64,000 nucleotides of DNA from Virgisporangium ochraceum (GTDB lineage Bacteria; Actinomycetota; Actinomycetes; Mycobacteriales; Micromonosporaceae). Made by a program: the position numbers and the translations under genes. The stretch spans positions 1 through 64,000 of the forward strand of contig NZ_BOPH01000025.1 of NCBI RefSeq assembly GCF_016863655.1. The letters are read 5' to 3'. A model generated the notes under the pieces. It was given only the letters and a program-made list of their open reading frames with translations. It did no database searches and was not told the DNA's origin. Positions within the stretch are counted from its first letter, which is position 1. Each line of letters opens with the position of its first letter. This document shows positions 1-15,411 of this stretch, piece after piece.

Positions 1-26
1 GGCGCGGACGGTCGAGGCCACTGCCG

Positions 27-75
27 GCCCGGCCGGACAAGGCCACCGTCAGCCCGGCCGGGCAAGGCCGCCGTC
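27..75. repeat. Two-copy 25-bp direct repeat
   Basis: Two 24-nt copies (27-50 and 52-75) match at 22 positions with a 25-bp period. They sit in the GC-rich stretch before the first gene. No coding frame is evident; this may be the tail of a repeat or gene that begins outside the window. Confidence 0.4.
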
Positions 76-146
76 GGTGGAGGCCGTCGGGCGTCAGCGG
101 GGCGGTCGAGTCCGTCGACGGGTCGCCGGGCCGATAGGGTTGGAGC

Positions 147-950
147 ATGCGGGCATTGGACTCAGTGCGCGAATGGCCGGTCGAGCAGGCCGCCGTGGTG
201 GTGCTCGACCGTACCGGTGAGATCGCGCGGACGGGCCCTGACGAGCCGATGCCGTGGGCGTCGGTCACCAAGCTGGTCACGGCGCTCGCGGTGCAGATCG
301 CCGTCTCACAGGGTGACGTCTCGCTCGACGAGCCGGCGGGTCCGCCGGGTGCCACGGTGCGGCACCTGCTGGCACACGCGTCCGGGGTGGGGCCGGAGGA
401 CGACAGTGTGCTCGCCCAGCCGGGCAAGCGGCGCATCTACTCCAACCGGGGCTTCGACCTGCTCGGTGAGCTGGTGGCCGAACGTGCGGGAAAGCCCTTT
501 CCCGAGTACCTCGATGCCGAGGTGTTCAGCCCGCTCGGGATGACGCGTACGCGGCTCGACGGGTCACCGGCGCGCGCTGTCACCGGTCCCATCAGCGACC
601 TTGCCGCGCTCGGCGCGGAACTGCTGACACCCACGTTGGCCACCGACCTGCGCGACGAGGCGACCCGGGTGGCGTTTCCCGGGTTGTCCGGGGTACTGCC
701 CGGGTTCGGACGGCAGGCGTCGAACGACTGGGGACTCGGGTTCGAGATCCGCGACGGCAAGAGCCCGCACTGGACGGGTAGCCGCAACTCGCCGGAGACG
801 TTCGGCCACTTCGGACAGACGGGGTCGTTCCTGTGGGTGGACCCGGTGGCCGGTCTCGCGTGTGCCTGCCTGACCGGTACGCAGTTCGGTGAATGGGCCG
901 CGGAGCACTGGCCGCGGCTGAGTGACCTGGTACTTGACGAGCGGGCATGA
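147..950 (+). CDS. Serine hydrolase of the beta-lactamase/DD-peptidase fold
   Basis: This 267-residue protein has the class C beta-lactamase/penicillin-binding signature: SVTK at residues 39-42 (nucleophile Ser39 and Lys42), YSN at 98-100, and a C-terminal GHFGQTGSF segment in place of the KTG box. No signal peptide or membrane segment is visible, and the protein is shorter than typical secreted class C enzymes (about 350-400). It is therefore probably a cytoplasmic esterase or peptidase-like hydrolase rather than an antibiotic resistance enzyme; the substrate cannot be told. A copy of the dispersed palindrome (489-502, one mismatch) lies inside the gene and encodes GKPFP. The cupin gene follows 30 nt downstream and is probably co-transcribed. 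Confidence 0.85.
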   Translation: MRALDSVREWPVEQAAVVVLDRTGEIARTGPDEPMPWASVTKLVTALAVQIAVSQGDVSLDEPAGPPGATVRHLLAHASGVGPEDDSVLAQPGKRRIYSNRGFDLLGELVAERAGKPFPEYLDAEVFSPLGMTRTRLDGSPARAVTGPISDLAALGAELLTPTLATDLRDEATRVAFPGLSGVLPGFGRQASNDWGLGFEIRDGKSPHWTGSRNSPETFGHFGQTGSFLWVDPVAGLACACLTGTQFGEWAAEHWPRLSDLVLDERA

Positions 951-980
951 CCTGGCCCGCCGACGGGTAAGGAGTCGGCC

Positions 981-1370
981 ATGGAGCACTTCACGATCGC
1001 CACTGTTGCCGAGCAGCACGCGGACTTCCGCCGGGTGCTGTGGACCGGCAAGCACAGCCAGCTCGTCATCATGACCGTTCCGCCGAACGGTGAGATCGGC
1101 GAGGAGGTCCACGAGGTCGACCAGATCCTCACGTTCGTGAGCGGCGTCGGTGAGGCGCTGGTCAGCGGCGAGAAGCGGAAGGTCGCTCAAGGTGACCTCG
1201 TGGTCGTTCCCGCCGGCCGCAAGCACAACTTCATCAACACCGGCCCCAATCCCCTGGTGCTGTACACGGTGTACGCCCCGGCCGAGCACGCCGACGGTGC
1301 CGTTCACCGCACCAAGGAGGAGGGCGACGCGATGGAGGAGGCCGGCAAGGACGAGCCGCCCTCGTCCTGA
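981..1370 (+). CDS. Small cupin-domain protein
   Basis: A single conserved beta-barrel cupin of 129 residues. Cupin motif 1 is around EEVHEVDQIL (only one of the usual two His), and motif 2 is PAGRKHNFINTG. The start is set by AAGGAG eight nt before ATG. Cupins of this size bind a metal and act as sugar isomerases, dioxygenases or ligand sensors; the sequence does not discriminate. The acidic C-terminal tail (about 20 residues, EEGDAMEEAGKDE) is likely disordered. It probably shares a transcript with the preceding serine hydrolase and is followed by a hairpin terminator. Confidence 0.85.
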   Translation: MEHFTIATVAEQHADFRRVLWTGKHSQLVIMTVPPNGEIGEEVHEVDQILTFVSGVGEALVSGEKRKVAQGDLVVVPAGRKHNFINTGPNPLVLYTVYAPAEHADGAVHRTKEEGDAMEEAGKDEPPSS

Positions 1371-1373
1371 CAC

Positions 1374-1424
1374 AACGGTTGGTCCTGGGCTCCCGGCGCG
1401 TGCGCATGGGAGTCCAGGACCGTT
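1374..1424. terminator. Bidirectional hairpin between convergent genes
   Basis: GGTCCTGGGCTCCC (1381-1394) pairs with GGGAGTCCAGGACC (1408-1421) with one wobble, and flanking AACGG/CCGTT extends the stem. It lies between the cupin and the convergent isomerase gene and can serve both. Confidence 0.7.
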
Positions 1425-2399
1425 CTACGGTGTGGACGCGGCCGTCGCGGCCCGGAATCCGGCGACCGCCTCGGCCAGCACGTCGGCACCGGGTCGGGCC
1501 CACACCTCCGTGTTGAACACCTCGATCTCGATCGGACCGGTGTAGCCCGACGAGTCCGCATAGGACACCCACGCCGGCAGGTCGATGCAGCCGGTGCCCG
1601 GCATGCCCCGGCCCGTGAGGACGCCCGCGGGCAGCGGGGTGATCCAGTCGGCGAGCTGGAAAGCGCTTACCCTGGGCCCGGCGCGACGCACGAGGGCGGG
1701 CGCCCGGTCGTCCCACCACAGGTGGTACGTGTCGACCACGACGCCGACCTCGCCGACCTCGTGCCGTTCGGCGATCGCCAACGCCTGGTCCAGGGTGCTG
1801 ATCACGCACCGGTCGGAGCAGAACATCGGGTGCAGCGGCTCGATCGCGAGCGTCACACCGACCTCACGCGCGTGCGGCACCAGCCGCCCGATCGCGTCGG
1901 CGACGTGGACCCGCGCGCCGGCCAGGTCGCGTCCGCCCAGCCCGCCGCTGACGAGCACGAGCACCGACGTTCCCAGCGCGGCCGCCTCGTCGATGGCCCG
2001 CCGGTTCTCGTCGTACCAGCCGGCGTCGGCGAAGAACCCGCCCCGGCACAGCGAGGTAACCGCTATCCCGGCGTCGCGCACGAGCCTGGCCGTCTTCTCC
2101 AACCCGTAGTCGGCGACCGGCTCGCGCCACAGCCCGATCCCCGGGACGCCCGACCGCACCAGGGCGTCGACGAGGTCGGGCAACGGCCATCCCTGTGTGG
2201 TCGCCTGGTTGAAGGAGAACCGCGCCAGCCCGGGCGCGCCCTCCACAGGCCGCCCACCGCCGCGGGTCGCGCCGCCGTCGGGCGTTGCTCCGCCGGCGGC
2301 GGGCGTCACGGCACCGCCGCCGACGGGAGCCATGGAGGCGCCGGACGTGGCCTCCGCGGGGGTGGCCGCACCGTCCGCCGCCGGGGTCGCGGTCGTCAC
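1425..2399 (-). CDS. Sugar phosphate isomerase/epimerase (TIM barrel)
   Basis: A xylose-isomerase-like/AP-endonuclease-2 TIM barrel of about 324 residues. Metal-site motifs visible are EPLHP, VDTYHLWW, the QLADW strand and EIEVFNTE near the C-terminus. This family interconverts or epimerises ketoses and inositol derivatives; the substrate is not identifiable. The GTG at 2399 overlaps the TGA of the upstream oxidoreductase (GTGA), implying translational coupling. The first 55 or so residues are an unusual Ala/Gly/Pro/Thr-rich extension absent from typical members, so a start nearer the barrel (for example ATG at MAPVGGG) is possible. A copy of the dispersed palindrome lies at 1658-1671. Confidence 0.85.
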   Translation of the reverse strand: MTTATPAADGAATPAEATSGASMAPVGGGAVTPAAGGATPDGGATRGGGRPVEGAPGLARFSFNQATTQGWPLPDLVDALVRSGVPGIGLWREPVADYGLEKTARLVRDAGIAVTSLCRGGFFADAGWYDENRRAIDEAAALGTSVLVLVSGGLGGRDLAGARVHVADAIGRLVPHAREVGVTLAIEPLHPMFCSDRCVISTLDQALAIAERHEVGEVGVVVDTYHLWWDDRAPALVRRAGPRVSAFQLADWITPLPAGVLTGRGMPGTGCIDLPAWVSYADSSGYTGPIEIEVFNTEVWARPGADVLAEAVAGFRAATAASTP

Positions 2400-3550
2400 C
2401 GCGGAACCTCGAGGCGCGGGACCTCGAGGCGCCGGCCCTCGCGCGCCGACTGCAACGCAAGCTCCGCCAGGCGCACGCCGCGGGCACCGGAGGCGAAGTC
2501 CCAGTGGTACGGACCGTCCTCGGCGACGTGCCGCAGGAACGCCTCCCACTGCGCCTTGAATCCGTTGTCGAACTCGTCGTTGTCGGGCACCTCGGCCCAC
2601 TGGGTACGGAAGGGCACCGAGTTGGGAAGGTCCGGGTTCCAGACCGGCTTCGGCGTCATCGAACGATGCTGGACCCGGCAGTGACGCAGTCCGGCCACCG
2701 CGCTGCCCTCGGTGCCGTCGACCTGGAACTCGACCAGTTCGTCGCGGTACACCCGCACGCACCAGGAGGAGTTGATCTGAGCGACCGCCCCGCCGGCGAG
2801 CTCGAACACCGCGTACGCCGCGTCGTCGGCGGTCGCGGCGTAGGACTCACCCTGCTCGTCGACGCGGGTGTCGATATGGGTCGCCATCGTGCACTGCACC
2901 GACCGCACCCCGCCGAACAGCTCCTCGAGCAGGTAGTTCCAGTGCGGCAGCATGTCCATGACGATGCCGCCGCCGTCGGCCGCCCGGTAGTTCCACGACG
3001 GACGCTGAGCCGGCTGCCAGTCACCCTCGAAGACCCAGTAGCCGAACTCGCCCCGCACCGACAGGATCCGCCCGAAGAACCCGCCGTCGATGAGCCGCTT
3101 GAGCTTGCGCAGCCCCGGCAGGAACAGCTTGTCCTGCACGACACCCGTTTTGAGACCGGCGGCCGCGGCCAGTTCGGCCAGCTCGGTGGCCGCCACGGCC
3201 GTCTCCGCCAGGGGCTTCTCGGTGTAGATGTGCTTGCCGGCCTCGATCGCCTGCCGGATCGCCTTCTCGCGACCCGACGTTACCTGTGAGTCGAAATATA
3301 TCGATACGTCCGGGCGGGCCAGCGCGGCGCCCAGGTCGGTGGACCACTCGGTGAGCCCGTGCCGGGCGGCGATCTCCGCGAGCTTGGCCTCGCTGCGACC
3401 GACCAGGACGGGTTCGGGCCAGAGTGTCCCGTCGCGGGTGGGCAGGCCACCCGCCTCGCGGATCGCCAGTAGCGAGCGCACCAGGTGCTGGCGGTACCCC
3501 ATCCGCCCGGTGACTCCGTTGAGCACGATGCCGATCGACCGGCGCGTCAT
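2396..3550 (-). CDS. Gfo/Idh/MocA family NAD(P)-dependent oxidoreductase
   Basis: The 384-residue protein has an N-terminal Rossmann region (residues 1-125), the signature EKP at 111-113, and a C-terminal beta-sheet domain with GGGIVMDMLPHWNY containing the family catalytic His. Such enzymes oxidise or reduce a ring or side-chain hydroxyl of sugars and inositols. It is the first gene of the operon with the isomerase; together they resemble two-enzyme sugar interconversion modules. SD AAGGGAG lies at 3564-3558. The LacI-type operator 3582-3597 sits 32 nt upstream of the ATG, so repression by the divergent LacI protein is likely. The C-terminus ends in an exact LEVPR-LEVPR duplication from a 15-bp tandem repeat at 2403-2432. 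Confidence 0.9.
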   Translation of the reverse strand: MTRRSIGIVLNGVTGRMGYRQHLVRSLLAIREAGGLPTRDGTLWPEPVLVGRSEAKLAEIAARHGLTEWSTDLGAALARPDVSIYFDSQVTSGREKAIRQAIEAGKHIYTEKPLAETAVAATELAELAAAAGLKTGVVQDKLFLPGLRKLKRLIDGGFFGRILSVRGEFGYWVFEGDWQPAQRPSWNYRAADGGGIVMDMLPHWNYLLEELFGGVRSVQCTMATHIDTRVDEQGESYAATADDAAYAVFELAGGAVAQINSSWCVRVYRDELVEFQVDGTEGSAVAGLRHCRVQHRSMTPKPVWNPDLPNSVPFRTQWAEVPDNDEFDNGFKAQWEAFLRHVAEDGPYHWDFASGARGVRLAELALQSAREGRRLEVPRLEVPR

Positions 3551-3581
3551 CCCATTGCTCCCTTGGATCCCACATTCCTAG

Positions 3582-3597
3582 AGGAAAGCGCTTTCCT
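3582..3597. promoter_or_regulatory. LacI-family operator (perfect 16-bp palindrome)
   Basis: AGGAAAGCGCTTTCCT is a perfect dyad with the central CG typical of LacI/GalR operators. It is in the divergent promoter region between the Gfo gene and the LacI gene (start 3677). The only exact copy of the dispersed 14-mer in the window is here. A near-identical site is at 6144-6159, upstream of the pectate lyase. Confidence 0.75.
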
Positions 3598-3676
3598 GGG
3601 GAGGCTAACGGATCGGGCCGGGGCCGACAAGGTCGGGCGTCTACACTGCTGCCACACCGCACGGAAGGGCACTAGA

Positions 3677-4729
3677 TTGGCGCGCCCAGACGACGAGTCG
3701 TCAACCAATGTGACGCTGGCCGATGTGGCCCGGCGCGCGCGGGTCTCCCCCGCCACCGCGTCCCGGGTCATCAACGGCAGCACCAAACCCGTCGCCGACG
3801 GTCTCCGCGAGCGGGTGCTCAAGGCCGTCGCCGAACTCCGGTACGTGCCCAACGCGCACGCCCAGAACCTCGCCCGTGCGCAGCGCAGCGCGGTGGGCGT
3901 CATCGTCCACGACGTGTCCGACCCGTACTTCGCCGAGATCACCCGCGGCCTGCAGCGGATCGCCTCGTCCTACGGTCAGCTCCTGGTGATCTGCAACAGC
4001 TACCGTGACCCGCAGCGCGAGCTCGAGTACGTGGCGCTGCTGCGGGCGCAGCAGGCCGGCGCGCTGGTGCTCGCCGGGTCGGGCTACCACGACGCCGAGT
4101 TCACCAAGCAGCTCAATGGCCAGCTCAAGGCCTACGCCGAGACCGGTGGCCGGGTGGCCGTGATCGGCCGGCACGAGCTCGTCGGGGCGGCCGTGCTGCC
4201 CGACAACACCGTGGGTGCCTACGCGATCGGCCTCGCGGTGTTCGGCAACGGGCACCGCCACGTCGGCGTGATCGCCGGTCCACGCAACCTGACCACGACC
4301 ACCGACCGGCTCACCGGCATCCGGAACGCGGCGCATGAGAGAGGTGTTCCGCTTCCGGCCAGGCGGATCGTCTACGCCGACTTCACGCGGGACGGCGGAG
4401 CCAAAGCCGCGTACGACCTCCTGAACGACCATCCCGAGATCACCGCGATCGTCGCGTTGAACGACTCGATGGCCGTCGGAGCGCTGTCGGTGCTGCGCCA
4501 GCGCGGTCTCGACGTGCCCGGTCAGGTGTCGGTCACCGGGTTCGACGACATGCCGATCGCCCGCGACGTCACCCCGTCGCTCACCACCGTCCGGTTGCCG
4601 CTCGTCGAGATGGGCGAGCGGGCGATGTCGCTGGCGCTGGGCGGAACGCCGATCGACCACGTCGAGAACGCGTACTCCGAGGTGGTGATCCGCGAGAGTC
4701 TCGCCGCGGCGCCCGACATGACGAGGTGA
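3677..4729 (+). CDS. LacI/GalR family transcriptional regulator (pectin/sugar module)
   Basis: A 350-residue repressor. The helix-turn-helix VTLADVARRARVSPATASRV and the hinge helix QNLARAQR are followed by a periplasmic-binding-protein-like core (YFAEITRGL, GHRHVGVIAGP, VSVTGFDDMPIA). The TTG at 3677 is preferred because GGAAGG lies seven nt upstream; a GTG about 33 nt further in is the alternative. It diverges from the Gfo/isomerase operon and is convergent with the pectate lyase gene. The palindromes at 3582-3597 and 6144-6159 are its likely operators, so it probably represses both directions and itself until a sugar or uronate binds. A TACACT -10-like hexamer is at 3642-3647. Confidence 0.9.
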   Translation: MARPDDESSTNVTLADVARRARVSPATASRVINGSTKPVADGLRERVLKAVAELRYVPNAHAQNLARAQRSAVGVIVHDVSDPYFAEITRGLQRIASSYGQLLVICNSYRDPQRELEYVALLRAQQAGALVLAGSGYHDAEFTKQLNGQLKAYAETGGRVAVIGRHELVGAAVLPDNTVGAYAIGLAVFGNGHRHVGVIAGPRNLTTTTDRLTGIRNAAHERGVPLPARRIVYADFTRDGGAKAAYDLLNDHPEITAIVALNDSMAVGALSVLRQRGLDVPGQVSVTGFDDMPIARDVTPSLTTVRLPLVEMGERAMSLALGGTPIDHVENAYSEVVIRESLAAAPDMTR

Positions 4730-4762
4730 GTGCTGGAGAGCCCCGACGGGCTCTCCAGCACT
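4729..4762. terminator. Perfect bidirectional terminator hairpin
   Basis: A 15-bp perfect stem, AGTGCTGGAGAGCCC (4729-4743) with its complement at 4748-4762, and a CGAC tetraloop. It begins in the LacI stop codon and lies between convergent genes. Confidence 0.85.
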
Positions 4763-4773
4763 CGACGTACGGC

Positions 4774-6129
4774 CTACAGCTTTCCGGCGCCGGCCTGGGC
4801 GCCGACCTTCGCCGGCACCGCGGCGGTCGGGTCGACCCCCGCGCCGCGCAGTACAGGTACCCAGCCCGCGTCGGTGCCGAGGTCCGGGTCGTGGGTGGCG
4901 TTGTACTCGGCGAGCAGGCTGACGGGAACGGGCTTTCCTGAGCCGACCCGGGCCAGCGTGCCGATCTCGGTCATCGCGGTGCCGCCCCAGTCGTAGACGA
5001 ACTCGTCGAGACCGAGGTCGGCGCTGCGCAGCAGGAAGTTGTTCTCGGCGTAGAGCGCCGACTGCACGCCCACGCCCCACGAGTAGGAGAACGGCTCCTC
5101 GTCGGTCTGGTAGAAGAAGTTGTTGTACAGGTCCACCTGGCCGAAGCGGACCCGCGGCGCACGCTGCCCGACGTTGGCGAACCGGTTGTGGTGCAGGGTC
5201 ACGCGGAGCTTGCCGACGTCGACGCCGGGCGTGTTCGTCGATCCGATCAGCATCGTCTTGTCGTGCTCGAACAGGTTGTTCCAGCTCGCCGTGACGTAGT
5301 CGGAGCCGCGGATGATGTCGAAGAGCCCGTCGTGCACCTGGTAGGGCCGGCCGAAGTACACCGGCTGCGCGCTGTCCTGGTTGTCTCCGTCGGTGAACGT
5401 GTTGTGGTCGACCCACACGTTCGTCGCGGCGGTGAGCGTCAGCGTGTCGTGCAGCGAATTCCAGTTGCCGGCGTCGCCGTCGGTCGGCGTCCACGCCGGG
5501 AAGCAGTCGTAGGCGTCCTCGAGGGCGACGTTGCGGAGGATCACGTTGCTCACCCGGTCGAACATGATGTTCGCGCCGGTGATCGTCGCCGAGCGACCGA
5601 GCCCGATGATCGTGGTGTTCGAACCGACGAAGATGCGGATCCGCGCGGTCTGGTTGGCCGCCGAGCGGACCCGGGCCTCCTCCAGCGGCCCGCTGGGCGC
5701 GACCCGACCCCAGGTCGCGGGGTCGTAGGCGGCCAGGTACGCGTCGAGGCTGTACCCGGGGTCGGCGTAGTCGTCGCAGGCAAGCGCGTTCCCGGCGTCG
5801 TCGACGTTGGCGTCGATGTGACCGGTGACGAACACGATCTTCGGTGTGGCGTTCAGGCGGTTGGTGGCGTTGTCGCCGCCGAGCGCCGCGATGAGGCTGG
5901 CCCGGTCGGTGGCCACCCGGATGTCGGCCTGCGCGGCGGCCGATCCGCCGGTGGTGCCGGTGCCGGCCGACCCCCAGCCGTCACCGGCCGGGAGGGTCTG
6001 ACGGGCGAGGGCGAGGGCCCCGGCGGTGACCGTCGGAGCCGCCGCGGCGGTGGTGAGGGGAACGGCGGTGGTGACGGCCAAAGCCGTTGCTGCACAAGCG
6101 GTAGCGGCCACTAATGTGCGGAGACGCAT
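4774..6129 (-). CDS. Secreted pectate lyase, polysaccharide lyase family 1
   Basis: The 451-residue precursor has a Sec signal peptide (MRLRT, an Ala/Val-rich core, cleavage near TAAAAP, residues 28-32). Parallel beta-helix PL1 signatures are present: NTTIIGLG (171-178), WVDH (239-242), HDGLFDIIRGSD (266-277) and RAPRVRFG (323-330), which carries the catalytic and substrate-binding arginines. PL1 enzymes cleave polygalacturonan by Ca-dependent beta-elimination outside the cell, giving 4,5-unsaturated oligouronides, the substrate class of the divergent GH88 gene. The ATG at 6129 follows AGGAG by five nt. An operator for the neighbouring LacI protein lies 15-30 nt upstream of the start. Confidence 0.92.
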   Translation of the reverse strand: MRLRTLVAATACAATALAVTTAVPLTTAAAAPTVTAGALALARQTLPAGDGWGSAGTGTTGGSAAAQADIRVATDRASLIAALGGDNATNRLNATPKIVFVTGHIDANVDDAGNALACDDYADPGYSLDAYLAAYDPATWGRVAPSGPLEEARVRSAANQTARIRIFVGSNTTIIGLGRSATITGANIMFDRVSNVILRNVALEDAYDCFPAWTPTDGDAGNWNSLHDTLTLTAATNVWVDHNTFTDGDNQDSAQPVYFGRPYQVHDGLFDIIRGSDYVTASWNNLFEHDKTMLIGSTNTPGVDVGKLRVTLHHNRFANVGQRAPRVRFGQVDLYNNFFYQTDEEPFSYSWGVGVQSALYAENNFLLRSADLGLDEFVYDWGGTAMTEIGTLARVGSGKPVPVSLLAEYNATHDPDLGTDAGWVPVLRGAGVDPTAAVPAKVGAQAGAGKL

Positions 6130-6143
6130 GGGGGCTCCTATAT

Positions 6144-6159
6144 AGGAAAGCGCATTCCT
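6144..6159. promoter_or_regulatory. LacI-family operator upstream of pectate lyase
   Basis: AGGAAAGCGCATTCCT differs from the perfect operator at 3582-3597 by one base. It lies in the 112-bp divergent region between the pectate lyase and GH88 genes, close to the lyase ribosome-binding site, where a bound repressor would block transcription. Confidence 0.7.
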
Positions 6160-6241
6160 GAGGTACCGTGACACGCCCCGGGGTTCGAGGTCAACGTTCC
6201 CGGTGTGCAGTTTTGTTGCAGTGCGACAGGGAGGCTCCACA

Positions 6242-7600
6242 GTGGAGATCGACGAGAAGCTGACCCCCACCGACCTGCTGCCGAAGATCGACAGGCTGTG
6301 GGCGGCCTCCGGCGGGAAGATCGAGTCCATCGAACAGACGTGCCCGCCGTCCGAGGGCGCGCCCGTGTTCACCGTCGACGGGCGTTACACCGCCCGGGGT
6401 TGGACCGAGTGGACGGAGGGCTTCCGGTACGGCGCGGCGCTGCTGCAGTTCGACGCCACCGGCGACGAACGGTTCCTCACCATCGGTCGCGACGCGACGT
6501 TCGAGCGGATGGCGAGCCACGTCAGCCACGTCGGCGTCCACGACCACGGTTTCACGAACGTCAGTACGTACGGCGCGCTGCTGCGGCTGCTCCACGAGGG
6601 CCGGGTCGAGGGCGACCGCGCCGCATACGAGATCGCGCTCAAGGTCAGCGGCGCGGTGCAGGCGGCCCGGTGGCGCACCACCGCCGACGGTACCGGCTAC
6701 ATCTACTCGTTCAACGGGCCGCAGTCGTTGTTCGTCGACACGATCCGGTCGTGCCGGGCGTTGGCGATGGCGCACCAGCTCGGCCACGTGCTGATGGGCG
6801 AGCAGGACAAGCCGGTCTCGCTGCTCGGGCGGCTGGTCGAGCACGCCGCGAACACCGCGAAGTGGAACATTTTCCACGGGACCGGCCGCGACCGCTACGA
6901 CGTCCGCGGGCGCACCGCCCACGAGTCCATCTTCAACGTCAACGACGGCGCCTTCCGCTGCCCGTCGACCCAGCAGGGGTACTCGGCGTTCACCACCTGG
7001 ACGCGCGGACTGGCGTGGGCGATGGCCGGCTACCCCGAGCTGCTCGAGTGGGTCGCCACCCGCTCGGACGAGGAGCTGGAGACCGTCGGCGGACGGGAGA
7101 GCGTCACCGCGATGATGCTCGACGCGGCGACCGCGACCTGCGACTTCTACCTCGCCAACACACCCACCGACGGGGTGCCGTACTGGGACACCGGTGCGCC
7201 CGGGCTCGCCGCGATGGGCGACTACCTCGACCGCCCGGCCGACCCGTTCAACGACCACGAGCCGGTCGACTCGTCGGCGGCCGCGATCGCCGCGCAGGGC
7301 CTGCTGCGACTGGGCCGCTACCTGGGTGACGCGGGAACGAAGTACTGGCAGGCCGGCCTGACGGTGTGCGACACCCTGTTCGGCGAGCCGTATCTCAGCA
7401 CCGATCCGTCGCACCAGGGGCTGCTGCTGCACTCGGTCTACCACTGGCCGAACGGCTGGGACCACGTGGCGCCGGGACAGCGCGTTCCCAACGGGGAGGC
7501 CTGCATGTGGGGCGACTACCACCTCCGGGAGGTGGCGCTGTACGTCGGGCGCGTGGCGCGGGACGAGCCGTACTACACGTTCTTCGGCGGCTCCCGGTGA
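6242..7600 (+). CDS. GH88 unsaturated glucuronyl/galacturonyl hydrolase
   Basis: A 452-residue cytoplasmic (alpha/alpha)6-barrel enzyme. Family landmarks are HDHGF (100-104, catalytic Asp101), FVDTIRS (Asp166), [10 protein letters not shown] (254-263), DSSAAAI and the C-terminal [13 protein letters not shown]88 enzymes hydrate the 4,5-double bond of unsaturated uronides made by polysaccharide lyases, releasing a 4-deoxy-keto uronate. The GTG start at 6242 is set by AGGGAGG seven nt upstream. It diverges from the pectate lyase gene and overlaps the SDR start by four nt (GTGA), so lyase, hydrolase and reductase form a degradation route. No signal peptide is seen, so action is intracellular after uptake. 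Confidence 0.9.
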
Positions 7601-8436
7601 GCGCCGGGGAAAGCGCTGTCCCCGTGGGCCCGGCGAGCGCGGAAAGCGCTGTCCCCGTGGAGCGGCAGCGGCCCGTCGCGCTGGTCACCGGGGCGTCGCG
7701 CGGGATCGGGCGCGGGGTGGCCCTGGCGCTGGGCGGTGCCGGCTACGACGTCGTGGTCAACTACGTGCGCGACGCCGACGCGGCCGGCAAGGTAAGCGCT
7801 TCCCTGGCCGAGCTCGGCGTGCGGGGCCACGTCTCGCGGGCGGACATCTCGGTGGCCGCCGACCGGGAGCGGCTGGTGGCCGACGTCTACGACACGTTCG
7901 GCCGGCTCGACCTGCTGGTGAACAACGCCGGCGTGGGGCCGAAGGTGCGCGCCGACATCCTGGAGGCGTCGGAGGAGTCCTTCGACCACATGATCGGCGT
8001 CAACCTGCGCGGTCCGTACTTCCTGACCCAGCTCGTCGCCAACCGGATGGTGGTGCGCGACCGCAGCGGCGTCCCCGCACCGAAGATCGTCATCATCTCG
8101 TCGATCAGCGCGTACACGGCGAGCGCCAACCGGGGCGACTACTGCGTGGCCAAGGCCGGCCTCGCGATGACGGCCAAGCTGTTCGCGGCGCGGCTCGCCG
8201 GTCACGGCATCAACGTCTACGAGATCCGGCCGGGCATCATCGAGACCGACATGACCGGACCGGTCCGCGACCGGTACGACGACCTCATCCACAACAAGGG
8301 CCTGACACCGATCGCCCGCTGGGGCGTGCCCGAGGACGTCGGGCGGGCGGTGGTCGCGGTTGCCACGGACCTGTTGCCGTTCAGCACCGGTCAGGTGATC
8401 GACGTGGACGGCGGGTTCCACCTCCGGACGCTCTGA
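7597..8436 (+). CDS. Short-chain dehydrogenase/reductase (FabG/KduD-like)
   Basis: A classical SDR of about 279 residues with cofactor motif TGASRGIG (31-38), NNAG (109-112), active-site Tyr182-X3-Lys186 (YCVAK) and Ser near 169. Coupling to the GH88 gene by GTGA suggests it acts on the released deoxy-keto uronate or a later intermediate, in the manner of KduD; this is an inference from position. The first 22 residues are odd: ESAVPV occurs twice, encoded by two copies of the dispersed palindrome (7608-7621, 7641-7654). Alternative GTG starts at 7624 and 7658 would remove part of this. A third copy lies at 7791-7804. Confidence 0.88.
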
Positions 8437-8442
8437 GCAACC

Positions 8443-8490
8443 GGTTCCCGCCCCGCTCCGCGCGGAGCGGGGCGGGGCGGGGCGGGAACC
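8443..8490. terminator. GC-rich terminator hairpin between convergent genes
   Basis: GGTTCCCGCCCCGCTCCGC pairs with GCGGAGCGGGGC and GCGGGAACC, with a short GGGGC expansion in the right arm. It separates the SDR gene from the end of the uronate operon. Confidence 0.75.
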
Positions 8491-8492
8491 GC

Positions 8493-9623
8493 CTACGCGA
8501 GCCGGTGCTCGTACGTCGTCGCCGGCGCCGTCCACGGGAACGCGGTTTCCGAGAACAGTGCTCCCGCCGCCGCGGCAGCGGCCACCGCCGGCTCGACGCC
8601 GTCGATGGCCAGGCCGCCGTCGTGCGACACGAGGAACCGTGGGTCCACCGGGACGGGCGGGGGTGCGGCGACCACCGCCTCCAGCACCGCGGTGAAGGCA
8701 CGCGTGCGTTCGAGCTCGGCCCGCAACGGCACCTCCGGGTCGTCCCGGTGCGCCAACAGGTTCAGTAGCAGGTCCTCGCGTCCCGGGACGAGGGTCCAGC
8801 CGGCGCCCGGCAACCGGAGCCGGTCCGTCGGGTACTCGAGCACGGCGCTGCCGGCGCTGCCGGTCACCGTGATGTCGCCCGCGCGGAACTGGCGGGACGC
8901 GAGCGTCACCGCCACGGTGAGGCGGCGGTCGTTGGGGAACGTGAGGCGCACGCATCCGGTGTCCTCGACCTCGATCTGCCCGGCCCGGTACCGCTGCACC
9001 TCGGCGAGCACCGGAGCGCCCCATCCGGCCCCGGCGGCGACCGCCAGGCCCTGCATCACGGCGTGGGCGAACGCGTTGAGCAACGCGCCGTCTATCACCG
9101 GACGGCCGTCGAGAATGCGCTTTCCCGACCACGGTGAGCGGACCCAGTACGCCGGCGGCCGCCACCACGTACCGGCCACGCCAATCGCCTCGACCTCACC
9201 CAGAACTCCGGCGGCGATCCCGTCGACCAGCCGGGCGAGGGCGGCCGACCCGAGCGCCTGGAAGTTCACCTGGACCGGCAGCTTCGCCTGCTCCGCCTCG
9301 AGCGCCAGTGACGCGTGCTCGGCCAGCGACGCCACCGGCGGCTTCTCGAGCAGCACGTCGTATCCGGCGCGCAGCACGTCGCGCGCGATCGGCAGGTGGG
9401 TGTGCGGCGGCGTGCAGATGACCACCGCGTCGGGCCCGGTCGCCGCCAACATGTCGGTGTGGTCGGTGAACACCGCAACGCCGTCGAGCGGGGCGTCGGG
9501 GTCCTGCTGCGGCGGACGCACGTCGCTGACGGCGCACAGGCGGAGGCCCGGCGTCCGCTCGATCAGCCGGCGATGCCAGAGACCGTGCCCGGACGCACCG
9601 ATCAGGGCGACGGCCCGGTTCAT
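8493..9623 (-). CDS. Gfo/Idh/MocA family oxidoreductase, last gene of uronate operon
   Basis: A 376-residue NAD(P)-binding protein starting MNRAVALIGASGHG, with EKP at 93-95 and a C-terminal domain in which the usual GGG-D-H motif is replaced by DGALLNAFAHAV. It overlaps the preceding dehydrogenase gene by ATGA. Its place in the operon suggests a role in uronate or sugar-acid metabolism; the substrate is unknown. It carries the only dispersed-palindrome-like site of the five-gene operon (9112-9125, two mismatches). Confidence 0.87.
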   Translation of the reverse strand: MNRAVALIGASGHGLWHRRLIERTPGLRLCAVSDVRPPQQDPDAPLDGVAVFTDHTDMLAATGPDAVVICTPPHTHLPIARDVLRAGYDVLLEKPPVASLAEHASLALEAEQAKLPVQVNFQALGSAALARLVDGIAAGVLGEVEAIGVAGTWWRPPAYWVRSPWSGKRILDGRPVIDGALLNAFAHAVMQGLAVAAGAGWGAPVLAEVQRYRAGQIEVEDTGCVRLTFPNDRRLTVAVTLASRQFRAGDITVTGSAGSAVLEYPTDRLRLPGAGWTLVPGREDLLLNLLAHRDDPEVPLRAELERTRAFTAVLEAVVAAPPPVPVDPRFLVSHDGGLAIDGVEPAVAAAAAAGALFSETAFPWTAPATTYEHRLA

Positions 9624-11116
9624 GAGGAGGACACCTCCGCCAGGACCGCGGGAACCCCGCCCCGGGCCAGCACGGTGAGCCAGTGCTCGACCAGGCCGCG
9701 CACCTCGTCGTCGCCGGCCAGCTCCGCGGGGAACACCGCGTCGATCGCGAACAACGCGGCTGCCAGCTCCGACGGCTTGTCGTCCACTGAGGACACCGCC
9801 CCCCGCAGCCGGTCGGCCAACGGATCGTCGAGCGGCAACGCGGTGCCGTCGTCGGCGTAGCCCCGCACGAACCGCATCCACGCGGCGAGCACGAGACAAC
9901 CCCATACGGGACGGGCGCCCGCGGCCCGGCGGTCGACGAGCGTGCCGATCAGCCGCTGCGGGAGCTTCTGCGACCCGTCCATCGCGACCTGCAGGGTGCG
10001 GTAGCCGAGCGCCGGGTTGGCGAACCGCTCGCGCACGGTGCGGCCGTAGGCCTCGACGGACACGCCCGGCGGCGGCACCAACGTGGGCGCGATGTCCGAC
10101 CCGATCAGCCGGTCGAGGAACGCGTCGATCCCGGGCAGGTGCAGCACCTCGTCGATCGGACCCACACCGGCCAGCGCACCGAGGTACGCGAGTGCACTGT
10201 GGACACCGTTCAAAGTCCGCAGTTTCAGGCTTTCCCACGGCCGCGCATCGTCGGTGAGCACCACGCCGGCGTGCTCCCACGCGGGGCGGCCACCCGGGAA
10301 CTCGTCCTCGACCACCCACTGCGCGAACGGCTCGGCCGCGACCGGAACCAGGTCGGCGACGCCGAGCGCGCGGAGAGCCGACGCGCGTGTCGCGTCGGTG
10401 GTCGCGGGCACGATGCGGTCGACCATCGTGCCGGGGAACGACACCGCACCGTCGAGCCACGCCCGGGCCCGCTCCCCCGCCGGCCCGGGCACCTCGGCCA
10501 GTGCCGCCTCCAACAGGGCCCGCGTGCGGCGCCCGTTCGACGGAAGGTTGTCGCAGCTGACCACCGCGATCGGCGCGCCGGTCGCCGCACGCGCCAGCAG
10601 ACCGCGGGCCAGCAGACCGGGGACCGTGCGCGGCGGGCGGTCGGTGACCACGTCGGCGCGCACCTCGTCGTCGATGCGGGGAACGCCGCTGACAGGGTCG
10701 AGCCGGTAGGCCTTCTCGGTGACGGTGAGCGTCACCATCCGGATGGCCGGGTCGGCCAGGCGCGCGACCACCGCCAGCGGGTCGGCGGCGGCGTGCATCA
10801 GGTCGACGTGCACCCCGAGCGTCCGCGGCCGCACCGACCCCGGGCCGACGGTCAGCACGCTGTAGAGCCGGTCCTGCGCGGCCAGCGCGTTCAGGATGTC
10901 GACCGAGCGCGGCGCGACACCCACGATGCCCCAGTCGCCGCCGGCCGCTACGATCGCGTCTTCGATGTAGACGGCCTGGTGCGCCCGGTGGAACGCGCCG
11001 AGGCCGAGGTGGAGGATGCCGGCGCCGACGCCGCCGTCGAGCAGGGGCCGGGCCGCGTCGGGCAGCAGGTCCACAGTGGACCTGCCCAGCCGGGCGACCG
11101 CCGCGTCTACCGCCAT
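9620..11116 (-). CDS. Mannitol dehydrogenase family: fructuronate/tagaturonate reductase-type
   Basis: A 498-residue polyol dehydrogenase of the long-chain family. The N-terminal NAD-binding region has GILHLGLGAFHRAHQAVY (33-50), and the active-site K-x4-N-x2-H is at Lys298, Asn303 and His306 (KLRTLNGVH). The length matches UxuB/UxaB and mannitol 2-dehydrogenase (about 480-500). Next to a uronate isomerase gene, reduction of D-fructuronate or D-tagaturonate to mannonate or altronate is the likely reaction; mannitol or arabinitol oxidation cannot be excluded from sequence alone. The ATG at 11116 overlaps the upstream stop by 10 nt. Confidence 0.87.
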   Translation of the reverse strand: MAVDAAVARLGRSTVDLLPDAARPLLDGGVGAGILHLGLGAFHRAHQAVYIEDAIVAAGGDWGIVGVAPRSVDILNALAAQDRLYSVLTVGPGSVRPRTLGVHVDLMHAAADPLAVVARLADPAIRMVTLTVTEKAYRLDPVSGVPRIDDEVRADVVTDRPPRTVPGLLARGLLARAATGAPIAVVSCDNLPSNGRRTRALLEAALAEVPGPAGERARAWLDGAVSFPGTMVDRIVPATTDATRASALRALGVADLVPVAAEPFAQWVVEDEFPGGRPAWEHAGVVLTDDARPWESLKLRTLNGVHSALAYLGALAGVGPIDEVLHLPGIDAFLDRLIGSDIAPTLVPPPGVSVEAYGRTVRERFANPALGYRTLQVAMDGSQKLPQRLIGTLVDRRAAGARPVWGCLVLAAWMRFVRGYADDGTALPLDDPLADRLRGAVSSVDDKPSELAAALFAIDAVFPAELAGDDEVRGLVEHWLTVLARGGVPAVLAEVSSS

Positions 11117-12390
11117 GCCGGACCGTCCGGGAACGAGAACTCGGCGATGGAGGCGGGCTTCATCGCGACGCTGTACCCGGGGGCGGTCGGCAGCCGGTAG
11201 CGGCCGTTGCGCACCGAGACCGGATCGACGAAGTGCTCGTGCAGGTGATCGACGTACTCGACCATCCGGCCGTCGAGCGAGGTACCGACCCGCAGGTAGT
11301 CGAAGATCGCCAGGTGCTGCACGTACTCGCACAGCCCGACGCCGCCGGCGTGCGGACACACCGGCACACCGAACTTGGCCGCCATCAACAGGATCGACAG
11401 GACCTCGTTGACACCGGCCACGCGGCACGCGTCGACCTGGCAGACCCGGATCGCCTCGGCCTGCAGCAACTGCTTGAAGATCACCCGGTTCGCCGCGACC
11501 TCGCCGGTGGCGACACGCGTGAAGGGCAGCGCACGGGCGATCCGCGCGTGCCCCAGGACGTCGTCGGCGTGGGTCGGCTCCTCGATCCAGTACGGGTCGA
11601 ACTCTGCGAGGCGCTGCATGTTGGCGATCGCCTCGTCGACGTCCCAGATCTGGTTGGCGTCCATCATCAGCAGCGTGTCGGGGCCGACCTCCGAACGGAT
11701 CAGCCGGGCCCGCCGGATGTCGTCCTCGATGGGACCGCCGACCTTCATCTTGACCGCGCGCCACCCCTCCTCGTACGCCGTCCGGCTCAGGGAGCGGACC
11801 TTGTCGTCGGGGTAGCCGAGCCAGCCGACCGAGGTGGTGTACGACGGGAAGTCGTGCTCCTCGAGGAACGCGAGCCGCTCGGCGTACCCGTCGCGTCCCT
11901 TGTCCAATATGGACCGTGCCTCGTCGGGGGTGAGGGCGTCGCTGATGTGGTGGAAGTCGATCGAGGCGACCAGTTCCTCGGTGTCCATCTCGGCGAGGAA
12001 GCGCCACATCGGCTTGCCGGCCAGCCGGGCGCGCAGGTCCCAGACCGCGTTGACCATCGCGCCGGCCGCCATGTGGATGACGCCCTTCTCCGGGCCCAGC
12101 CAGCGCAGCTGGGGATCAGCCGTCAGCGACCGGAAGAAGGCGACCTGGTCCAGGTCGTCCAGCGACAGCCCCACCAGGTGGTGCGAGAGCGCACGGACGG
12201 CACCGCAGGTCAGCTCGTTGCCGCGCCCGTTCGTGAACGTCAGGCCGGAGCCGACGACGCCCGAGTCGGTCCGCAGCTCGACGTACGTCGCCGAGTAGTC
12301 GCCGCGGTTGATGGAGTCGGAGCCGTCGCCCGCCTCCGCGGTGGGGAACCGCACGTCGTGCACGTCGACGGCCGTGATCGTGGTCGCCAT
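11107..12390 (-). CDS. Enolase-superfamily sugar-acid dehydratase, L-fuconate dehydratase type
   Basis: A 427-residue member of the mandelate racemase/enolase fold. It shows FTNGRGNE (52-59), the K-x-K motif Lys214/Lys216, metal ligands Asp244 (MDANQ), Glu270 (IEEP) and Glu297 (TGE), the base His347 (CPHAGG) and EYVDHLHEHF near the end, all characteristic of L-fuconate dehydratases. The family removes water from aldonic acids to give 2-keto-3-deoxy acids. In this operon it replaces the mannonate or altronate dehydratase normally found beside UxaC and UxuB, so its real substrate may be the aldonate made by the neighbouring reductase. After GEV the usual HCQN is replaced by AANR. Confidence 0.88.
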   Translation of the reverse strand: MATTITAVDVHDVRFPTAEAGDGSDSINRGDYSATYVELRTDSGVVGSGLTFTNGRGNELTCGAVRALSHHLVGLSLDDLDQVAFFRSLTADPQLRWLGPEKGVIHMAAGAMVNAVWDLRARLAGKPMWRFLAEMDTEELVASIDFHHISDALTPDEARSILDKGRDGYAERLAFLEEHDFPSYTTSVGWLGYPDDKVRSLSRTAYEEGWRAVKMKVGGPIEDDIRRARLIRSEVGPDTLLMMDANQIWDVDEAIANMQRLAEFDPYWIEEPTHADDVLGHARIARALPFTRVATGEVAANRVIFKQLLQAEAIRVCQVDACRVAGVNEVLSILLMAAKFGVPVCPHAGGVGLCEYVQHLAIFDYLRVGTSLDGRMVEYVDHLHEHFVDPVSVRNGRYRLPTAPGYSVAMKPASIAEFSFPDGPAWR

Positions 12391-12392
12391 GG

Positions 12393-13829
12393 TCAGCCTT
12401 CCAACCGGAACACGTTCTTGGGCAGGTGGTAGGCGAGGTCGGCGATCGTCTGCGCGGCCTCGTCGAGCGGGAGCCGGTCCTCGGCGACGAGCCGGGCCAG
12501 GAACGCGGCGTCGATGCGGCGGGCCACGTCGTGGCGCACCGGGATGGAGCAGAACGCGCGGGTGTCGTCGACGAACCCGGACGTGTTGTAGAAGCCGGCC
12601 GTCTCGGTGACCGTCTCGCGGAACCGGCGCAGACCCTCCGGGGAGTCCAGGAACCACCACGGCGCACCGAGGTAGACCGCCGGGTAGCCGCCGGCGAGCG
12701 GAGCCAGCTCGCGGGTGAACACCGTCTCGTCCAACGTGTACAGGACGAGCCGGAACCGGGGATCGTTGCCGAACCGGTCGAGCAGCGGCATCAGGCCGCG
12801 CACGTAGTCGGTGGCCGTGGGGATGTCGCCGCCGACGTCGCGGCCGTGGGTCGTGTGCAGCCACCGGTTGTGGTTGCGGGTGGCGCCGGGGTGCAGCTGC
12901 ATCACCAGACCGTCCTCGACGGACATCTCGGCGAACGCGACGAGCATATGGGCTCGGAACGCCTCGGCGTCGACCGCGTCGGCGGTGCCGTTGAGCCCCT
13001 TCTCGAACAGCACCGCGGCCTCGTCGCGGCTGAGGTCGAGGGTCAGTGCGGTCGGGTGTCCGTGGTCGGAGGACGTGGCGCCCGCGGCGATGAACGCCTC
13101 CCGGCGCGACCGCAGCGCGGACAGGAAGCCGTCGTAGGTCGTGGTGTTCTCGCCCGTGAGGGCGCCGAGCGCGGCGACCCGGGCCGGCCAGCCGGCCCAC
13201 TCGAAGTCGACCAGGTCGTCGGGACGGAACGTGGTGACCACCCGGTCGCCCCAGCCGTCGGCCTTGAGCCGGGCGTGCGACTCCAGCTTGTCGAGCGGGT
13301 ACTCGGTCGTGGCGAGCAGCTCGATGTTGAACCGCTCGAACAGCGCGCGCGGCCGGAAGTCCGGTTTGGACAGTCGCTCGGAGATCGCGTCGTAGACCTC
13401 GTCGGCGTTGCCCCACCCGGCCGTTCCACCGGCACGCAGCGGCGGCACGTCGAACACGTCGCTGAACACCCGCTCCAGCCACATCCGCGACGGCGTGCCG
13501 CGGAACAGGTGCCAGTTGGCGGCGAAGCGGCGCCAGATCTCCCGGCCGTCGGTCTCCACCTCGATGTCCGGGTCGGCGCCGGGAAGCGTCGCCACGCCGA
13601 GCTTCGACGGCGGGATGCCCTGGCTGAGCAGCATCCGCGTGACGTAGTGGTCGGGCACCACGATGAGCCGGGCCGGATCGCTGAACGGCGCGTCGTCGGC
13701 GAGGAGCGCCGGATCGACGTGGCCGTGCGGCGAGATGAGCGGCAGCGGCGCCGCGACGGCGTACAGTTCGCGCGCGATCGAGCGCTGGGTGGGGTCGACC
13801 GGGAAGAGGTGGTCGCTGTCGGTCTTCAC
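12393..13829 (-). CDS. uxaC: Uronate isomerase
   Basis: A 478-residue amidohydrolase-superfamily protein (E. coli UxaC has 470). Signatures are SPHGHVDP with His35-x-His37, the RMWLERVF region, QLHPGATRNHN and APWWFLDSP. UxaC interconverts D-glucuronate with D-fructuronate and D-galacturonate with D-tagaturonate, the entry step of hexuronate catabolism in the cytoplasm. The GTG at 13829 overlaps the TGA of the upstream Gfo gene. Only two bases separate its stop from the start of the enolase-type dehydratase. It is the clearest marker that this operon handles uronates released from pectin or glucuronides. Confidence 0.93.
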   Translation of the reverse strand: MKTDSDHLFPVDPTQRSIARELYAVAAPLPLISPHGHVDPALLADDAPFSDPARLIVVPDHYVTRMLLSQGIPPSKLGVATLPGADPDIEVETDGREIWRRFAANWHLFRGTPSRMWLERVFSDVFDVPPLRAGGTAGWGNADEVYDAISERLSKPDFRPRALFERFNIELLATTEYPLDKLESHARLKADGWGDRVVTTFRPDDLVDFEWAGWPARVAALGALTGENTTTYDGFLSALRSRREAFIAAGATSSDHGHPTALTLDLSRDEAAVLFEKGLNGTADAVDAEAFRAHMLVAFAEMSVEDGLVMQLHPGATRNHNRWLHTTHGRDVGGDIPTATDYVRGLMPLLDRFGNDPRFRLVLYTLDETVFTRELAPLAGGYPAVYLGAPWWFLDSPEGLRRFRETVTETAGFYNTSGFVDDTRAFCSIPVRHDVARRIDAAFLARLVAEDRLPLDEAAQTIADLAYHLPKNVFRLEG

Positions 13830-15178
13830 GAAGGGGTCTCCACAAGCAGGTCGGCCACCCGCACGCGCTGTCCGGTGGCGATGGAACGGTTCGCGGCCAG
13901 GCCCACCAGGAGCGCCTGCGCGCCCTCCCGTTCGGTGGCCCGGCGGCCGAGCGGGTCCGGCGGCTGGTCGGGCCGCAGCAACGCGGCCAGCATGCGCGAG
14001 TCGGCCCCGCCGTGGCCGTGCCGGCTGTGCCCGGTGATCGGCACCTCCCGCGGCGGTTCCCAGAACGGCCTTACCAGGACCCGGATCCAGCCGTTCTCGG
14101 CGGCGGCCTCGACACCGTGCAGCGCCGCCGACTTGCCCTTCACCTCGCCCGCGAGGGTCGGCGCCACATGGTCGTTCTCCACGACCTCGACCTCCAGACG
14201 CCCGCGACTGCCGTTGAACCCGATGCGGTAACCCTCCCACGGCGAGTACGCGGTGAGGTGGTAGGTCATCGTCGCGCCGGTGGAGTAGTCCACGAGCACC
14301 GCCATGTCGTCCTCGATCGTCACACCGGGCGCGAACACGTTCTGGTCGCGGCGGTAGCCGTCGTGGGCCTCGGCGTCGAGGTACAGCTCGCGCAGCGCGG
14401 GCTGCGCGGCCAGGTGCAACGCGAACGGGTCGTCGCGGGCCGCGTCGGCGCCGTGCGCGCGGTCGTAGGGCCGCGCGTAGCCGTGCCGTCCGCCGGCGTC
14501 CGGGCCGTAGAAGGACAGGCGACCGGACCCGGAGACGGTGACCGGCTGCGCGTCGAGCCACCAGTTCACAAGGTCGAAGTGGTGGCTCGCCTTGTGCACC
14601 AGCAGCCCGCCGGAGCTGGCCTTGTCACGGTGCCACCGGCGGAAGTAGTCGGCGCCGTGCCGCACGTCGAGCAGCCATTCGAAGTGCACCGAGGCGATCT
14701 CGCCGACCACGCCCGACGCCAGCAGTTCGCGCACCGTCTCGTGCACCGGGTTGTAGCGGTAGTTGAACGTGACGGTGACCGAGCCGGGGTTCTCCCGCGC
14801 GGCGGCCAGTACCCGCCGGCACTTCTCCTCGTCGGTCGTCATCGGCTTCTCGACGATCACGTCACAGCCCGCTTCGAGGGCGGTGACGATGTACCGGTCG
14901 TGCGTCGCATCCACTGTGGACACCACGACGGCGTCGACCCGCTCCTTCGCGAGCATCGCCGCGAAGTCGTCGGCGGCGTACGTGGGCACGGGCGCCGCGC
15001 CGAACTCACCGAGGCGGCGGTTGTGCGCGGCCATCCGGTGCGGGTTGGTGTCGGCCAACCCGACGAGCTCGACGACGTCGGAGTGGTCGACGGCGATCGC
15101 CGACGTGTACATCTCGGCCCGGGCGCCGGTGCCCACGATCGCGAAACGCCGGCGCACAGCGGGGTCGGCGGGGGGCAT
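13826..15178 (-). CDS. Gfo/Idh/MocA family oxidoreductase, first gene of uronate operon
   Basis: A 450-residue protein with Rossmann motif VGTGARA (15-21), EKP at 110-112 and a catalytic region HKASHHFDLVNWW. It belongs to the longer Gfo/Idh/MocA group with an extended, Arg/His/Tyr-rich loop around residues 235-270 (YDRAHGADAARDD). A strong SD (GAGGAGGAG) precedes ATG 15178. It is the promoter-proximal gene of the five-gene uronate operon; the minus-strand promoter and operator are at 15262-15308. The substrate is unknown. Confidence 0.88.
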   Translation of the reverse strand: MPPADPAVRRRFAIVGTGARAEMYTSAIAVDHSDVVELVGLADTNPHRMAAHNRRLGEFGAAPVPTYAADDFAAMLAKERVDAVVVSTVDATHDRYIVTALEAGCDVIVEKPMTTDEEKCRRVLAAARENPGSVTVTFNYRYNPVHETVRELLASGVVGEIASVHFEWLLDVRHGADYFRRWHRDKASSGGLLVHKASHHFDLVNWWLDAQPVTVSGSGRLSFYGPDAGGRHGYARPYDRAHGADAARDDPFALHLAAQPALRELYLDAEAHDGYRRDQNVFAPGVTIEDDMAVLVDYSTGATMTYHLTAYSPWEGYRIGFNGSRGRLEVEVVENDHVAPTLAGEVKGKSAALHGVEAAAENGWIRVLVRPFWEPPREVPITGHSRHGHGGADSRMLAALLRPDQPPDPLGRRATEREGAQALLVGLAANRSIATGQRVRVADLLVETPS

Positions 15179-15261
15179 TGCTCCTCCTCGATGCGGAGTG
15201 ACACGGGTCGGCGCCGGGCCGACACGGAGCGGCACGACGGCGGGGGGCGGCCCGCCGGGCA

Positions 15262-15308
15262 GCAAACGTTTGCAGCGAACTATCAACGACCACCACCCGG
15301 TCCGTCAA
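15262..15308 (-). promoter_or_regulatory. Promoter and LacI-type operator of the uronate operon
   Basis: On the minus strand TTGACG (15308-15303) and GATAGT (15284-15279) are separated by 18 nt, a good vegetative promoter. The perfect palindrome GCAAACGTTTGC (15262-15273) covers the expected start point, the right place for a LacI-family repressor. Confidence 0.7.
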
Positions 15309-15381
15309 CGGTTCAGGACAGAAAGTCCATTAAGCGGTAGTTTCCCCCACTGTTCAGATGTAACCGTCAGGCATCGACCCG

Positions 15382-15411
15382 TTGACATGGACGCAACCGT
15401 TTGCATTAATA
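15382..15411 (+). promoter_or_regulatory. Promoter and operator of the second LacI gene
   Basis: TTGACA (15382-15387) and TTAATA (15406-15411) are spaced by 18 nt. GCAACCGTTTGC (15393-15404), one base from the palindrome at 15262, fills the spacer, so the LacI protein probably represses its own gene and the ABC genes behind it. Confidence 0.72.

Follow-up and report, generated by a model that had tools for sequence, protein, structure and literature searches.

A LacI-type operator core repeated in one ~189-kb chromosome segment of Virgisporangium ochraceum, a possible region-specific chromosome mark

In the genome of the soil bacterium Virgisporangium ochraceum, we have found that about 100 imperfect 14-bp copies of a LacI-type operator core are packed in a single segment of ~189 kb, the flanks of which are nearly empty of such sites. 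This distribution suggests that the target of a sugar regulator has turned into a marker of a chromosome region; namely, a LacI-type operator would have been reused as a region-specific mark, through which a LacI-family reader marks or folds the ~189-kb domain. We propose this reading tentatively, from sequence comparison and from analogy with known site sets, and put its chance of being right at a little under even. The window (the whole stretch of DNA analysed, 64,000 nucleotides) is contig 25 of the 11.4-Mb draft genome. In this genome the motif occurs as two populations, which are 16-mers at promoters and one domain of imperfect 14-mers; the features of the window are collected in Table 1.

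Table 1. Operators, genes and dispersed array sites in the window
Feature	Positions	Strand	Remarks
Right-hand part of ~189-kb domain	1..40752		rest is contig 24; edge after the 40526 site
Dispersed site GGAAAGCCCTTTCC	489..502		intragenic
Dispersed site GGAAAGCGCTTACC	1658..1671		intragenic; conserved in V. aurantiacum
Gfo/Idh/MocA oxidoreductase	2396..3550	-	divergent from LacI; Pfam
Perfect 16-bp operator AGGAAAGCGCTTTCCT	3582..3597		0 mismatches; divergent promoter oxidoreductase/LacI; base-identical in V. aurantiacum
LacI-family regulator	3710..4729	+	Pfam LacI (PF00356) 1.8e-15, Peripla_BP_3 (PF13377) 8.1e-30
Secreted pectate lyase	4774..6129 (other start 6081)	-	Pfam PF00544 2.1e-44
Dispersed site GGAACGGGCTTTCC	4925..4938		inside pectate lyase; absent in both relatives
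Dispersed site GGCAAGCGCGTTCC	5779..5792		intragenic
Operator AGGAAAGCGCATTCCT	6144..6159		1 mismatch; upstream of pectate lyase; conserved in V. aurantiacum
Gene divergent from pectate lyase	6242..7600	+	without Pfam match
Dispersed site GGACAGCGCGTTCC	7475..7488		intragenic
Dispersed site GGAAAGCGCTGTCC	7608..7621		intergenic
Site GGAAAGCGCTGTCC	7641..7654		segment missing from V. aurantiacum
Dispersed site GGTAAGCGCTTCCC	7791..7804		intragenic
Dispersed site GGAACGCGGTTTCC	8537..8550		intragenic
Dispersed site AGAATGCGCTTTCC	9112..9125		intragenic
Dispersed site GGAAAGCGCTTCCC	19146..19159		intragenic
Dispersed site GGTAAGCGCTTTCC	20401..20414		at gene end
Dispersed site GGAAAAGGCTTTCC	20963..20976		intragenic
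Dispersed site GGAAAGCGCTTGCC	22141..22154		intragenic
Dispersed site GGAAAGCCTTTTCC	22561..22574		intergenic
Dispersed site GGGAAGCGCTTTCC	23169..23182		intragenic
Dispersed site GGAAAGGGCTGTCC	23797..23810		intragenic
Dispersed site GGAAGGCGTTTTCC	24202..24215		intragenic
Dispersed site GGCAAGCGCTTTCC	25881..25894		intergenic
Dispersed site GAGAAGCGCTTTCC	26071..26084		intragenic; not in V. aurantiacum
Dispersed site GGAAAGCGCTGTCC	26514..26527		intragenic
Dispersed site GGAAACCGTTTTCC	27347..27360		intragenic
Dispersed site GGTAAGCGCTTTCC	28188..28201		intragenic
Dispersed site GGCAAGCGCTTTCC	29390..29403		intragenic
Dispersed site GGCCAGCGCTTTCC	35998..36011		intergenic
Dispersed site AGCAAGCGCTTTCC	36318..36331		intergenic
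Dispersed site GGTAAGCGGTTTCC	37345..37358		intragenic; not in V. aurantiacum
Dispersed site GGACAGCGCTTACC	39408..39421		intragenic
Dispersed site AGAAAGGGCTTTCC	39775..39788		intragenic
Last dispersed site GGAAAGCGCGTTCC	40526..40539		intragenic; domain's right edge

Promoter operators of a pectin regulon

According to Pfam, the LacI protein of the window carries a LacI HTH and a sugar-binding domain. The only exact copy of AGGAAAGCGCTTTCCT in the window lies between the oxidoreductase gene and the LacI gene, and the one-mismatch copy lies between the pectate lyase gene and the divergent gene at 6242..7600, which we take to be possibly an unsaturated uronyl hydrolase. A motif scan and the gene positions thus confirmed what a first-pass annotation had noticed, i.e., one exact and one single-mismatch copy at the LacI and pectate-lyase promoters. 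The same annotation started the LacI gene at an alternative codon, TTG at 3677. In the window as a whole, 21 places match the 16-mer with ≤3 mismatches, compared with 0.02 expected from shuffles.

The palindrome had also been read as the operator of this very LacI protein, and two lines of sequence evidence support that assignment: sites of the AGG(A/T/C)AA(G/A)CGCTTTCCT type are found upstream of the LacI orthologues of relatives, and perfect copies elsewhere in the genome are located at promoters of pectin degradation. Indeed, an operator-like site with ≤2 mismatches is present in 64 of the 80 LacI-orthologue loci of the family, mostly directly upstream of lacI. The operators at these loci usually have A...T outer bases, as do seven of the eight perfect genomic operators outside the domain. 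Also, the AAnCGnTT core is of the LacI/GalR type, though cores of this kind may be recognised by further LacI proteins of Actinobacteria as well.

The promoter population amounts to ~10 perfect or near-perfect 16-mers, which are dispersed singly at the promoters of pectate lyase, rhamnogalacturonan lyase and pectinesterase genes. At all ten loci examined outside the domain, a PL1, PL3, PL11, pectinesterase, GH3 or MocA gene adjoins the site; the perfect 16-mers there, together with several one-mismatch copies, adjoin two pectate lyase families, rhamnogalacturonan lyases, pectinesterase, GH3 and an oxidoreductase. Judging from their neighbours, the sites at 3582 and 6144 and these outside copies are one classical LacI pectin regulon, and the LacI protein is likely the regulator of pectin utilisation. 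While ~30 LacI-type proteins are encoded in the genome, just one close match to the DNA-binding domain is found per genome, and the next-best domain is only 55% identical to that of this LacI. The set of enzymes with promoter operators (pectate lyases, rhamnogalacturonan lyases, pectinesterase) is that of actinobacterial LacI pectin regulons; such a regulon of ~10 promoter sites, however, leaves ~100 intragenic copies in one region unexplained.

A dense array with sharp edges

In this study, a 14-mer with ≤2 mismatches to the core GGAAAGCGCTTTCC is regarded as an array site. Contig 24 has 68 of these sites and the first 40.5 kb of the window 32, where the copies of the core comprise one perfect, 14 one-mismatch and 17 two-mismatch sequences. 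No site with ≤2 mismatches was found in 43 kb beyond the site at 40526; as for the flanks, contig 23 has a single site over its entire length, and contig 26 has five, the first of which lies beyond 37 kb. Because contigs 23-24-25-26 are collinear with contigs 13-14-15-16 of V. aurantiacum, the array therefore forms one ~189-kb segment with sharp edges, composed of contig 24 and positions 1-40540 of the window.

We compared the motif with 139 palindromes of the same composition, made by permuting the half-site (140 palindromes with the motif): in ~190 kb, the motif has 100 matches with ≤2 mismatches, whereas the controls have 0.8 on average and 8 at most. The sole strongly over-represented palindromic octamer of the segment is AAGCGCTT (44 copies vs 0.6 expected; 51 vs 0.8 in the V. 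aurantiacum segment), which was found three times when 183 kb of flanking DNA and of other contigs were sampled. A short site is hence strongly over-represented in a single chromosome region, since 36 imperfect 14-mers with one perfect half fall in contig 24 and the first 41 kb of the window (0.19 Mb), as against only seven in the other 11.2 Mb. Perfect 14-mers are distributed in the opposite way, with eight of the nine outside the domain and one inside (Fisher p = 6.6e-5). Throughout the 11.4-Mb genome, 107 16-mers were found with ≤3 mismatches, and 10 in a reverse-read control. The "hundreds" of genomic sites suspected in the first-pass annotation thus shrink to these 107, and the global or nucleoid factor that it considered does not fit copies that fill one sharply bounded domain instead of the genome.

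Almost all of the array sites (99/100) are imperfect, one half being perfect in most, and just eight of the 100 have both A...T outer flanks. When the array sites are aligned, the information is limited to 14 bp and no longer element is seen. REP, RPE or another mobile palindromic element was rejected on this ground and also because, at most sites, alignment with the orthologous gene shows no insertion.

In terms of genes, 82% of the array sites are intragenic, and their positions within genes are uniform (KS p = 0.43). Noncoding DNA holds 18% of the sites vs 9.7%, a mild enrichment (p = 0.007) that leaves room for some regulation. The genes of the domain are unrelated, with functions in purine catabolism, acyl-CoA metabolism, phosphatases, selenocysteine insertion (SelA, SelB, SelD-like), transporters and pectin; the ~100 sites do not, therefore, stand at promoters of related genes as those of a regulon would. 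The observation that the copies exceed the need of a regulon and are mostly intragenic, made already in the first pass, holds well. We saw no correlation of array-site density with local conservation or GC, and the functional class of site-free gaps in the domain followed no clear pattern.

Selection on the array and its origin

The closest named relatives are V. aurantiacum and V. aliadipatigenens; the former shares the domain, in which it has 113 sites. Among the sites with a gap-free alignment, 71 of 84 are retained in V. aurantiacum, compared with 34 of 99 control palindromes, and the base changes at retained sites are within the tolerated positions. We then examined codons that encode the same amino acid in both species, considering that A/T-ending codons are rare in this DNA of 71% GC. 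A/T-ending codons were kept in 108 of 119 cases (91%) within the sites but in 937 of 2879 (33%) elsewhere (odds ratio 20, p = 1e-38), which shows that the array sites are under purifying selection on their DNA sequence within genes.

Some sites have fully turned over, ~12 in each direction, with 4-10 motif mismatches in 14 bp and ordinary flanks. At the 4925..4938 site, the two relatives agree with each other across the second half, which points to a likely recent gain. Species-specific sites showed no significant correlation that would indicate compensating gain and loss in shared 5-kb bins.

A high count of the motif is confined to two of the 355 genomes of the family, namely this genome (61 oriented matches) and V. 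aurantiacum (78), the others having ≤26. In the two contigs of V. aliadipatigenens that were read, 47 of the 175 domain proteins were found; the contig with domain orthologues has one copy of the motif, a promoter operator between the oxidoreductase and pectate lyase genes. V. aliadipatigenens, as well as other members of the family, thus has promoter operators without the array, from which it follows that the promoter operator predates the array. This order is the reverse of that in the first-pass proposal, in which operators had been recruited from an abundant repeat. By the same comparison, the ~100 copies of the 14-bp core arose by base substitution within the domain genes, in the lineage that V. 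aurantiacum shares with this genome. A horizontally acquired island was also considered and rejected; V. aliadipatigenens has orthologues of a considerable share of the domain genes, in a different arrangement and free of array sites. The LacI DNA-binding domain of V. aliadipatigenens is nearly identical, and its comparison revealed no change by which the two species with the array stand apart. LacI alone, therefore, does not explain the origin of the array.

Possible reader and role of the array

A LacI-family protein would bind the array sites, and the most likely reader is the LacI of the window, because it is the sole close DNA-binding-domain match in the genome and is encoded inside the domain. 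With many dimers on the array, the region might be marked or folded, perhaps through bridges between sites, in the way of the site sets matS, SlmA and Noc. Gene-by-gene control of transcription seems less likely for the array, given the unrelated functions of the domain genes and the even distribution of the sites over gene bodies.

Several known systems resemble the array in part. In the Ter macrodomain of E. coli, matS, the 13-bp target of MatP, is present in 23 copies in 800 kb (PMC3330122; PMC3116907) and is likewise a short palindrome that is repeated in one chromosome region and defines a domain; the array differs in having ~100 copies of 14 bp in ~189 kb, i.e., >10 times denser, with a LacI-type core and a lineage-restricted occurrence. 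SlmA, a TetR-family nucleoid occlusion factor, recognises dispersed palindromes mainly in coding regions with a regional distribution (PMC3116907), and its sites are similar to ours in being of a transcription-factor type, mainly coding and regional. Unlike the array, which fills one small region and leaves the rest nearly empty, SlmA sites are spread over the greater part of the chromosome, with Ter left out. E. coli GalR is a metabolic regulator of the LacI/GalR family and has been proposed to restructure the chromosome via distant sites (PMC5110547), but the novel sites reported for it lie upstream of genes, and a dense intragenic array has not been proposed for them. HIP1 (GCGATCGC) is a short dispersed palindrome at high frequency in cyanobacteria (PMC4390886); it is, however, an 8-mer of whole genomes associated with orphan methyltransferases, and not a 14-mer in one domain. 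An earlier description of such an array was not found in the open-licence literature. As to other identities, a terminus mark was rejected, as contig C113, outside the domain, carries the sole dif-like match; so was an origin mark or parS/ParB centromere (GTTTCACGTGAAAC), as parS is on C16/C17 and the motif is unrelated.

Alternatively, the pectin LacI might bind only the promoter operators, and the array might be read by a different protein, for example a second member of the LacI family, whose 14-bp target is nearly the same. This is rather unlikely, but it has some support: most array sites are without the A...T outer bases typical of the operators, which would allow for a different reader or for weaker binding, the genome offers ~30 LacI-type proteins, and the absence of the array from a third species with the same LacI fits a lineage-specific reader. 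On the other hand, the core consensus of the array and its tolerated changes closely match the operators of this LacI family, there is a single close DNA-binding domain per genome, and no dedicated candidate was found within the domain.

Slightly less probable is regional control of transcription, in which intragenic operators act as roadblocks and keep the block of genes low until breakdown products of pectin appear. Roadblock repression is known for LacI-type proteins, the domain contains several catabolic clusters (pectin, purine, acyl-CoA), and the mild noncoding enrichment would also agree with such control. Nonetheless, the domain includes the selenocysteine genes and unrelated enzymes, the positions of the sites along genes are uniform, and the second LacI/ABC sugar operon of the same pectin cluster (9.6-18.8 kb) is without a site.

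We consider it very improbable that the array is tolerated noise or results from some mutational or conversion mechanism by which a short palindrome multiplies locally. In its favour, intragenic PhoB sites in E. coli are reported to be unconserved noise (PMC10294691), and the turned-over sites look block-like, with 4-10 differences per 14 bp in well-aligned surroundings. Against it, retention far above controls and the kept rare codons contradict unconserved intragenic noise, changes at retained sites are confined to tolerated positions, and there is no longer repeat unit and no indel at most sites. Equally improbable is a titration of LacI close to its gene, for which the array would be a store of weak sites that adjusts how the pectin regulon is induced; although most array sites are 1-2 mismatches from the operator and lacI is within the domain, ~100 sites over 189 kb would be excessive, titration needs no regional limit, and relatives with the same regulon manage without the array.

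In conclusion, the array is read here, tentatively, as a region-specific chromosome mark derived from a LacI-type operator. The fuller version of this reading, in which a carbohydrate-responsive LacI repressor and ~100 selected intragenic operators have been co-opted as a region-specific, nutrient-linked chromosome organiser of the macrodomain type that evolved within one genus, is possible but rather doubtful. Only a few region-specific site sets of the matS kind are known, and how they arose is poorly understood; here two species have the array and one does not, and the operator is still used in all three, so that the path to the array can be followed at the level of single bases. With rare codons held in place, the array also counters the PhoB-based view of intragenic sites as unconserved noise. 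If a metabolic repressor reads the array, nutrient sensing would be directly linked to chromosome layout.

Distribution of the motif within and beyond the domain

Sites, that is, matches to the 14-bp LacI-operator-like palindrome core with at most two mismatches, were found inside genes of the selenocysteine cluster on contig 24, which lies within the site-dense domain. Despite its position within the same domain, the operon of the second LacI gene and the ABC sugar transporter in the pectin cluster was devoid of the motif. Past the point where the main domain ends on its right-hand side, five sites were grouped at 37.8-52.3 kb of contig 26 of the V. ochraceum assembly G000 (stretches L029 and L030). 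Provided that contig 26 adjoins contig 25, this small second cluster would be placed ~80 kb further on.

Repeats in the window

The DUF4331 protein gene and its inverted partner look like diverged copies of one gene; the inverted pair flanks a TPR-protein gene, and the arms of the inverted repeat are 71-82% complementary. Two tandem repeats were also noticed, together with a near-perfect inverted repeat that is probably a terminator.

Features in the window and on contig 24
Feature	Location	Strand	Remark
SelD-like, tRNA-Sec, SelA, SelB	L023 (contig 24 stretch) 3571-7863; contig 24, 143.6-147.9 kb		
Second LacI, ABC sugar transporter operon	window 9620-18800		
17-bp tandem repeat	window 25211-25376		CGGCGCGACCCGTCATG, ~7 copies; intergenic
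DUF4331 protein gene	window 31036-32709	-	first copy
Second copy	window 34425-35810	+	
15-bp tandem repeat	window 36152-36271		CCAGGCAGCACTTCA; noncoding
32-bp inverted repeat	window 43197-43276		16-base loop; intergenic

Site turnover between species

Approximately 42 sites were specific to V. aurantiacum (L042-L054, the stretches covering its equivalent domain) versus 29 specific to V. ochraceum. The positions of the domain sites thus turn over between the two species, while their total count stays similar.
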